From positions 1-48,004 of IMG/VR virus record IMGVR_UViG_3300005921_000004: a DNA stretch of 48,004 nucleotides; one strand, 5' to 3'. Within the stretch, counting starts at the first letter, position 1, and every line of letters begins with the position of its first letter. This document shows, piece by piece, positions 45,050-46,593 of the stretch. The notes beneath the pieces are model-generated. The model made no database searches, had not been told where the DNA came from, and worked only from the letters and a program-made list of their open reading frames with translations. Made by a program: the position numbers and the translations under genes. Source of the DNA: a virus.

Positions 45050-45344
45050 CCAGAAGGCACAGGCGCGCGGCGAGGCGGCGCTGGATGTGATCGACGAGAT
45101 CATGTCGGACCCGTTCGCCGAGAACAAAGACCGGCTCGCCGCGGCGCGCGAGATGCTCGACCGCGGGCACGGCAAGCCGAACCAGGCGGTCATCATGGTG
45201 CCCTTGGATCGGCAGCGCCGCCAGGCCGCGGCGCTGTACTCAGACGCTGAGCTAGGAGAAATAATCGAGGGGGAAATTGTAAGCCGGGAGCAAGCCGAGC
45301 AGCTCGCGCTGCCAGCACCAGAACGGGACCCACTACTAGAATGA
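45039..45344 (+). CDS. TerS-like or terminase-linked small protein (101 aa)
   Basis: The product is helical and charged (GEAALDVIDEIMSDPFAENKD, then RLAAAREMLDRGHGKPNQAV), a pattern common in small proteins encoded near phage terminases. It lies in the TerS position but with two modification genes between it and TerL. The small subunit would recognise phage DNA and bring it to TerL. The length is short for TerS and no HTH is certain, so confidence is moderate. Confidence 0.5.
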   Translation: MRIDQKAQARGEAALDVIDEIMSDPFAENKDRLAAAREMLDRGHGKPNQAVIMVPLDRQRRQAAALYSDAELGEIIEGEIVSREQAEQLALPAPERDPLLE

Positions 45345-45970
45345 ACGTCCGCGGAAAAATCTACAGGCACCAGCCGTTCGAGTACCCGGCGCAGCCCCCT
45401 TTGCCGTTCGATGGCTTCGGGTGGAACAGCACCGAGAGGATCTTCGAGACGCTGATCCGCAGGCTGAAACCTAGCGTCATCCTGGAAGTAGGGAGCTGGT
45501 ACGGGGCGAGCGCGATCCACATGGCGCGGCTCGCGCTGAACCAGAGAGGCCCGCTCGATCCGCCGGTGGAGGTAATCGCGATCGACACCTTCCTCGGCTC
45601 GGTCTACATGTGGCAGAACGCGGAATTCGACAAGCATCGCGTCAACGGCCGCATCGACGTGTACCCGCAGTTCCTCTCCAACGTGATCTGGACCGGGCTG
45701 ACCAACACGATCACGCCGCTGCCGCTCGACTCGGTGAACGCCGCGTACCTGCTCGGGCAGGCTGGCGTTGTGGCCGATCTGATCTACATCGACGGCGGCC
45801 ACGAGTACGAGCACGTCATGCAGGACATCGCCTGCTACAAGGATCTGCTGCGGCCGGGCGGCGTGCTGTTGGGGGATGATGCGAACTTCCCGGACGTGCA
45901 CCGAGCGGCGGTGGATTCGATCCCAGGCTTCGAGATTCACGACAGGAAGTTCGTATGGACAAAGGCGTAG
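45341..45970 (+). CDS. Class I SAM-dependent methyltransferase (MT24/CmcI-like)
   Basis: The 209-aa product has VILEVGSWYGASAIHMA (SAM loop around 47-60), VIAIDTFLG (acidic residue for ribose), LIYIDGGHEYEHVMQDI (D151, metal/SAM) and GGVLLGDDANFPDV. These match O-methyltransferase-like family MT24/CmcI, used on sugars and small molecules. It overlaps TerS-like and GT2 genes. A role in methylating a sugar added by the adjacent glycosyltransferase is the natural hypothesis. Confidence 0.75.
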   Translation: MNVRGKIYRHQPFEYPAQPPLPFDGFGWNSTERIFETLIRRLKPSVILEVGSWYGASAIHMARLALNQRGPLDPPVEVIAIDTFLGSVYMWQNAEFDKHRVNGRIDVYPQFLSNVIWTGLTNTITPLPLDSVNAAYLLGQAGVVADLIYIDGGHEYEHVMQDIACYKDLLRPGGVLLGDDANFPDVHRAAVDSIPGFEIHDRKFVWTKA

Positions 45971-46593
45971 TTGTAACGCCATACGCCAATGAGCCGATGG
46001 AGATGATCCTTCGGTGCATTGAGTCTGTTGCGGCGCAGACAGTGCCCGTACGCCATCTCCTGGTGGCCGACGGCAACCCGCGCAAGCAGTTGGAATTCTG
46101 CCAAGGGGTAGAGCACGCCACGCTGGAGAAACGATACAACGACTGGGGCAACACCCCGCGCGCGTACGGGATGATCCACACCTCCAAGGCGCCGTTCATC
46201 GCGCTGCTCGACGTGGACAACATCTACCTGCCGGAGCACATCGAAAGCTGCTTGGCGACGGCGAAGGCGAATCCGGACTGCGATTTCGTCGCCAGCAAGC
46301 GACAGTTCGTGCGCTACGACAAGGGTGCCTACACACCAAGCTCCGCGGTCGATGAGCCGCAGTGGAAGCACATCGACACGAGCTGCTACTTCTTCCTGCC
46401 CGGTACGTACGCGCTCGCGGCATACATGTGGGCGAACGGTCCGCAGGAGTGCGCGCGGTATCGGTACAGCGTGGACCGGCACGTCTACGGCGCGCTGCGC
46501 GCTGCGGGCAAGAAACCGGCCTTCACCAACCGCGAGACCGTGATCTACACCGTGCACGGCGAGCCCGCGGAGAAGCGCCATGCTCCCCAGTAA
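45955..46593 (+). CDS. GT2-family glycosyltransferase
   Basis: The 212-aa product starts inside the end of the methyltransferase gene. It has GVVVTPYANEPMEMILRCIESVAAQT (nucleotide-sugar fold start), FIALLDVDNIYLPEH (D86-V-D88, the metal/donor DxD site) and a C-terminal region with SVDRHVYGALRAAGKK. It would transfer a sugar to a protein, DNA or LPS-type acceptor. The acceptor is unknown; the gene lies among packaging genes together with the methyltransferase. Confidence 0.75.
   Translation: MDKGVVVTPYANEPMEMILRCIESVAAQTVPVRHLLVADGNPRKQLEFCQGVEHATLEKRYNDWGNTPRAYGMIHTSKAPFIALLDVDNIYLPEHIESCLATAKANPDCDFVASKRQFVRYDKGAYTPSSAVDEPQWKHIDTSCYFFLPGTYALAAYMWANGPQECARYRYSVDRHVYGALRAAGKKPAFTNRETVIYTVHGEPAEKRHAPQ

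Follow-up and report, generated by a model that had tools for sequence, protein, structure and literature searches.

The viral record IMGVR_UViG_3300005921_000004, analysed over its whole length of 48,004 nt and called the window below, has identical ends of 80 bp and was read as a circle for that reason. It belongs to an uncultivated, podovirus-like phage. The genes on which our argument depends are listed here along that circle.

45039..45344, plus strand: TerS-like gene flanking the cassette, matching phrog_10899, terminase small subunit (E 1.7e-6)
45341..45970, plus strand: MT209, predicted class I SAM-dependent O-methyltransferase of the Methyltransf_24 / CmcI-rhamnosyl-O-methyltransferase type (Pfam)
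45955..46593, plus strand: GT212, predicted GT2-family GT-A glycosyltransferase (PF00535, alignment, AlphaFold2 model)
46580..46729, plus strand: microprotein of 49 aa (KPHIF..WWYCG..GR..NGCASG.TP..AW), third cassette gene, conserved in 4/4 cassette contigs
46690..47763, plus strand: TerL-N, ATPase half of the terminase large subunit (phrog_38, E 1.9e-55; PF03237, E 6e-13)
47760..48004, plus strand: TerL-C, nuclease half, first part (weak phrog_38 match, E 0.07)
1..474, plus strand: remainder of TerL-C, by translation across the ends, the last 80 bases of the window being its first 80
4195..4872, plus strand: predicted GT-A-fold glycosyltransferase of phrog_1574, A197/Mnn9/LH3-GT-like (profile, alignment, AlphaFold2 model)
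5340..6410, plus strand: major capsid protein (MCP), candidate acceptor (phrog_9953 major head protein, E 4e-35)

The cassette has the order TerS, MT209 (209 aa), GT212 (212 aa), microprotein, TerL, and its genes are tightly packed: the stop of the TerS-like gene overlaps the MT209 start in the sequence ATGA, the MT209 and GT212 reading frames share 16 nt, and the microprotein overlaps both the GT212 stop and the TerL start. The first-pass annotation had described a methyltransferase and a GT2 enzyme overlapping each other between a TerS-like gene and TerL, and the shared 16 nt together with the phrog_10899 and phrog_38 flanks bear this out. Three further contigs, L009 (=L001=L018), L008 (=L011) and L019, share this gene order, which with the window makes four. 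Among these the methyltransferases are 50-82% and the glycosyltransferases 40-70% identical, and the overlap between the two genes measures 16, 16, 22 and 28 nt. Pairwise dN/dS lies at 0.19-0.30 for the methyltransferase and 0.21-0.44 for the glycosyltransferase (one GT pair being saturated), which indicates that both are maintained as proteins under purifying selection. Chance, or an ORF artefact, as the origin of MT209 and GT212 is ruled out by these ratios and the synteny. The microprotein, of 40-49 aa and rich in Trp and Cys, is present in all four cassette contigs, and a scan of other genomes for its motif found none outside them.

A comparison with relatives that lack the cassette, which had been put forward as a check, found TerS and TerL adjacent in most of them: the two genes touch or lie within about 100 nt of each other in nearly all other relatives with a visible junction, and likewise in the isolate Pan3, so that the cassette is most simply explained as an insertion. 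The TerS/TerL junction is an insertion-tolerant site. Both it and the TerL-N/TerL-C junction also take other insertions, such as homing-type endonucleases, and the ORF found at the TerS/TerL junction of L033 reads as an enzyme of this type by its sequence. The large subunit itself is divided. TerL-N and TerL-C meet in an ATGA overlap, the TerL-C match falls on phrog_38 profile positions after those of TerL-N, and the TerL-C reading frame crosses the 80-bp end repeat. Most of the closer relatives have the break too, their second half being read in a different frame, and several of them carry ORFs inserted between the halves (HNH-like in L017; others in L020, L029, L030, L094 and L117). A single continuous TerL is found in the more distant relatives L031-L039 and L125-L131 and in the isolates Pan3 and Mwe-JY13. 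The two-polypeptide TerL thus looks real and not the product of a sequencing error; a literature search on split terminases returned nothing useful.

MT209 exceeds the Pfam cut-offs for both PF13578 Methyltransf_24 (E 2e-16, 61.1 bits against a cut-off of 26.3) and PF04989 RMNT_CmcI (E 3e-10, 40.7 bits against 23.2), and its profile matches in the PDB are catechol O-methyltransferases and 6g7d. The likeness to CmcI and the rhamnosyl O-methyltransferases holds at the level of these two families but does not extend to the NCBIfam rhamnosyl O-methyltransferase equivalog, where MT209 falls far under the cut-off with 22.3 against 400 bits. GT212 is a predicted GT2-family glycosyltransferase: it matches Glycos_transf_2 (PF00535) with E 3e-9 and 37.5 bits (cut-off 23.3), and its alignment with 11 homologues preserves the DxD metal motif and acidic residues, with D39, D88 and D141 invariant and D86 and D174 nearly so. 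The AlphaFold2 model of GT212 (pLDDT 85.8) has as its neighbours in the PDB a Leptospira glycosyltransferase (6p61, Z 22.3), WrtF (21.4), TarP (21.0) and RmlT (20.7).

The product of the gene at 4195-4872, hereafter GT-A, gave no match in a Pfam search. It is a member of the phage family phrog_1574 (E 1.6e-18), which has no assigned function in PHROGs; here it reads as a GT-A enzyme that comes with a GT2 partner and whose catalytic residues are kept, D82xD84, E184-D185 and H209 being invariant in an alignment of 26 homologues. Its AlphaFold2 model (pLDDT 82.5) finds its nearest solved fold in STIV A197 (PDB 2c0n; Z 19.4, 2.6 A over 169 aligned residues), followed by the glycosyltransferase domain of human LH3 (Z 18.4), Mimivirus R699 (16.2) and yeast Mnn9 (16.0), while the link to A197 in sequence is weak (profile E 0.037). 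On this basis we propose that it is a glycosyltransferase of the GT-A fold and the putative partner of the GT2 enzyme. The enzyme classes given to all three genes in the first-pass annotation, that is a sugar-type class I methyltransferase, a GT2 enzyme and a second GT-A-like gene, agree with the Pfam matches above cut-off and with the modelling and PDB comparison. The structure prediction suggested there as a check yields GT-A folds for both glycosyltransferases, each of which, judging by conservation, retains the residues that a donor site needs. The GT-A gene sits between the scaffold and MCP genes. A small conserved protein adjoins it at 4820-5188 of the window; this protein matches phrog_825 in one relative and is kept in most close relatives, both GT+ and GT-.

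Scans with TerL and MCP gathered about 140 related viral loci, and co-occurrence was counted in about 70 distinct contigs that show the scaffold-MCP interval, duplicates having been removed. GT212 is replaced in 27 GT-A contigs by GT290, a different GT2 enzyme of about 290 aa whose gene directly follows that of GT-A in the scaffold-MCP interval. Three contigs, the window included, combine GT-A with GT212/MT209, and five have GT-A with neither GT2 family. Three of these five are fragments that end before the TerS/TerL junction, L152 encodes a third GT2 (PF00535, E 3e-10), and L130/L026 shows both sites but no GT2 anywhere in the 10 kb that it covers. Neither GT2 family occurs in any of the 36 contigs without GT-A, and the GT212 and GT290 families are never found together in the same contig of this count. 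One genome that lacks GT-A, G021, does encode a GT2 at another place, and this enzyme belongs to neither family. In 21/27 contigs the GT-A and GT290 genes overlap head to tail by 4-20 nt, suggesting coupled translation. Several relatives have a gene of the histidine phosphatase superfamily next to the GT-A/GT290 pair (in L222 at 11154-11855; PF00300, E 4e-27). The isolates Pan3, whose gene set is that of a podovirus, and Mwe-JY13 have a TerL about 50% identical to that of the window and no annotated glycosyltransferase in the stretches examined, which implies that the enzymes are not essential to the body plan.

A methyltransferase goes with the GT290 pair as well. The methyltransferase comparison (METHYLTRANSFERASE) found an enzyme of about 185 aa in eight of the nine complete GT290 genomes, whose relatives in the PDB (3ssm, which we take to be MycE, E 7e-17; 8ia9, E 2e-15) are sugar O-methyltransferases, demethylmacrocin O-methyltransferase among them. 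With MT209 counted, a sugar-type methyltransferase is present in 9/10 complete GT genomes versus 0/6 without GT-A (Fisher p 0.0009 over 16 complete genomes, a value not corrected for kinship), and the complete genomes without GT-A have no gene of the Methyltransf_24 type. G011 encodes a protein with C-methyltransferase domains, also in the scaffold-MCP interval. That methylation recurs beside GT pairs by way of unrelated enzymes argues for a methylated sugar as the product.

These counts bear on whether MT209 and GT212 are unrelated cargo, inserted by chance at a tolerant TerS/TerL site and independent of GT-A. The other insertions received by the two terminase junctions are in keeping with such an origin, and kinship offers little help in deciding. 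In a portal tree built for 45 contigs the presence of GT-A changes at least five times, three of the changes being forced by well supported branches, and with five changes a phylogeny-corrected test of paired co-occurrence cannot reach significance, since there are too few independent events of GT-A gain or loss to give it power. The association is strong by counts and shallow in independent events. Against chance cargo stand the restriction of each GT2 family to contigs with GT-A and the mutual exclusion of the two, the persistence of the methyltransferase and GT2 as joined, overlapping genes in four contigs although the most divergent pair of glycosyltransferases is 44% identical, and the second, unrelated sugar O-methyltransferase that goes with the GT290 version. 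We therefore regard unrelated cargo as an unlikely explanation. The proposal in the first-pass annotation that the distant GT-A gene and the cassette serve one pathway is, by the same token, supported: wherever either GT2 family occurs and the interval is in view, GT-A is there too, a sugar O-methyltransferase co-occurs, and the GT-A and GT2 genes overlap in most relatives.

The enzyme classes and their folds, the conservation of catalytic residues, the evidence of selection, and the shared gene order, co-occurrence and exchange of partners lead us to think it reasonably probable that the cassette and GT-A constitute a phage module for building a methylated glycan, with a virion protein as the most likely acceptor. 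Host sugar nucleotides and SAM would serve as donors. One glycosyltransferase, most likely the phrog_1574 enzyme, would attach a sugar to the acceptor, the exchangeable GT2 enzyme would append a second sugar, and the methyltransferase would cap the glycan by O-methylation; we infer this order of the two glycosyltransferases, and the glycan rather than another substrate as the target of methylation. The MCP is one candidate for this acceptor; the spike and an accessory head protein are others, and all are encoded on the same strand. The phage group has at least three kinds of GT2 extender at two genomic sites, and it is possible, if a little short of probable, that the system is modular throughout its members, with a conserved A197-like initiating glycosyltransferase, interchangeable GT2 extenders and convergent O-methyltransferases (CmcI-like or MycE-like) that would together give rise to lineage-specific methylated capsid glycans. 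The enzyme classes are ordinary; their arrangement is unusual and modular.

The first-pass annotation favoured a structural acceptor on the ground that the genes are transcribed with late genes. The location of the genes, among those for the head and packaging, does favour a structural acceptor, as do the precedents of STIV A197 and the mycobacteriophages, but the search for the residue concerned gave nothing clean: in a comparison of 38 MCP sequences differences associated with the glycosyltransferases were seen, yet at several of these positions the window departs from the other GT+ phages, and no clean GT-associated acceptor residue emerged. The gene families confined to GT+ genomes are mainly the glycosyltransferases, the MycE-like methyltransferase, one divergent small gene of the head region and small or shadow ORFs, with no obvious acceptor among them. 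Transcription with late genes does not hold for the pathway in general, because the sister lineage encodes its MycE-like enzyme on the minus strand, beside a helicase and among replication-type genes.

Homologues of GT212 that are 27-33% identical to it lie just upstream of an unrelated, phrog_2-type TerL in several of L228-L236. The occurrence of the family beside the terminase genes of different phages fits expression related to the particle; the insertion tolerance of the terminase-adjacent site is an alternative reason for finding these homologues there. A small protein with the DxD-like motif FLDIDCVP often sits between the GT212 homologue and the phrog_2-type TerL (L232 3219-3899; L228 6684-7349; L236 6705-7385). 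It is possibly another glycosyltransferase; two of these proteins were searched and had no Pfam match, and the one from L232 had no PHROG match either.

A different acceptor would lie outside the virion (ALTERNATIVES), with the enzymes altering the LPS or another surface glycan of the infected cell so as to block superinfection. Prophage TarP modifies wall teichoic acid, and Gtr systems modify the O-antigen. The GT212 model does resemble TarP, RmlT and WrtF, all of them enzymes of cell-surface glycans, but GT2 enzymes generally resemble one another in this way and many others score nearly as high, while several of the structures closest to GT-A (A197, LH3, Mimivirus R699 and Mnn9) are enzymes of protein glycosylation. 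No Gtr PHROG matched the window glycosyltransferase, the genes are located among those for head and packaging, and related prophages come mostly from Gram-negative hosts, which makes teichoic acid an unlikely target. We consider modification of the host surface improbable. Least probable is the DNA acceptor that the first-pass annotation had left as an option, with the glycosyltransferases decorating modified bases in the phage's DNA as a defence against restriction: phage glycosyltransferases that act on DNA exist, two of them and a methyltransferase could assemble a base decoration, and the sister lineage keeps its methyltransferase among replication-type genes, but a hydroxymethylase of the thymidylate synthase type was found in none of 14 genomes (the window and 13 relatives) with a control positive in nine genomes, a search of the same 14 for a Tet/JBP-type base oxygenase was negative with its control likewise silent, and the window encodes an ordinary set of replication-region proteins (Pol A, Prim-Pol, SSB, a DUF2800/PD-DEXK nuclease and an SNF2 helicase).

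A glycan-building module acting on the virion, the reading that we prefer, has counterparts in other viruses. Virion glycosylation is reported for the mycobacteriophages Che8 and cluster O (Freeman et al. 2023, cited by PMC11600133 and PMC11256854), and in cluster O three glycosyltransferases encoded downstream of an O-methyltransferase are reported to modify the capsid and tail tube (PMC11600133, citing Freeman 2023). That system shares with ours the pairing of phage-encoded glycosyltransferases with an O-methyltransferase; it differs in that the window has a podovirus-like gene set with the genes inside the head and packaging block, and that the modification of its virion is a predicted one. 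A tblastn search of a mycobacteriophage-rich phage collection listed no mycobacteriophage match to the GT2 enzyme or the methyltransferase (E <= 0.01) or to GT-A (E <= 0.001). STIV A197, an essential GT-A enzyme suspected of glycosylating the capsid protein (PMC10551542), has a minimal GT-A fold and stands first among the structural neighbours of the 4195-4872 protein; it belongs, in contrast, to an archaeal virus, and its sequence tie to GT-A is the weak one given above.

If the module decorates virions, the phenomenon would extend to an uncultivated podovirus-like group, and phrog_1574 would gain a likely function as a glycosyltransferase. Few phages have been shown to glycosylate their virions with enzymes of their own, and those known to us are mycobacteriophages. 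The near relatives in which the GT2 enzyme and methyltransferase are present, absent or swapped amount to a natural experiment on capsid glycans, through which the effect of such glycans on stability, adsorption or recognition could be tested.
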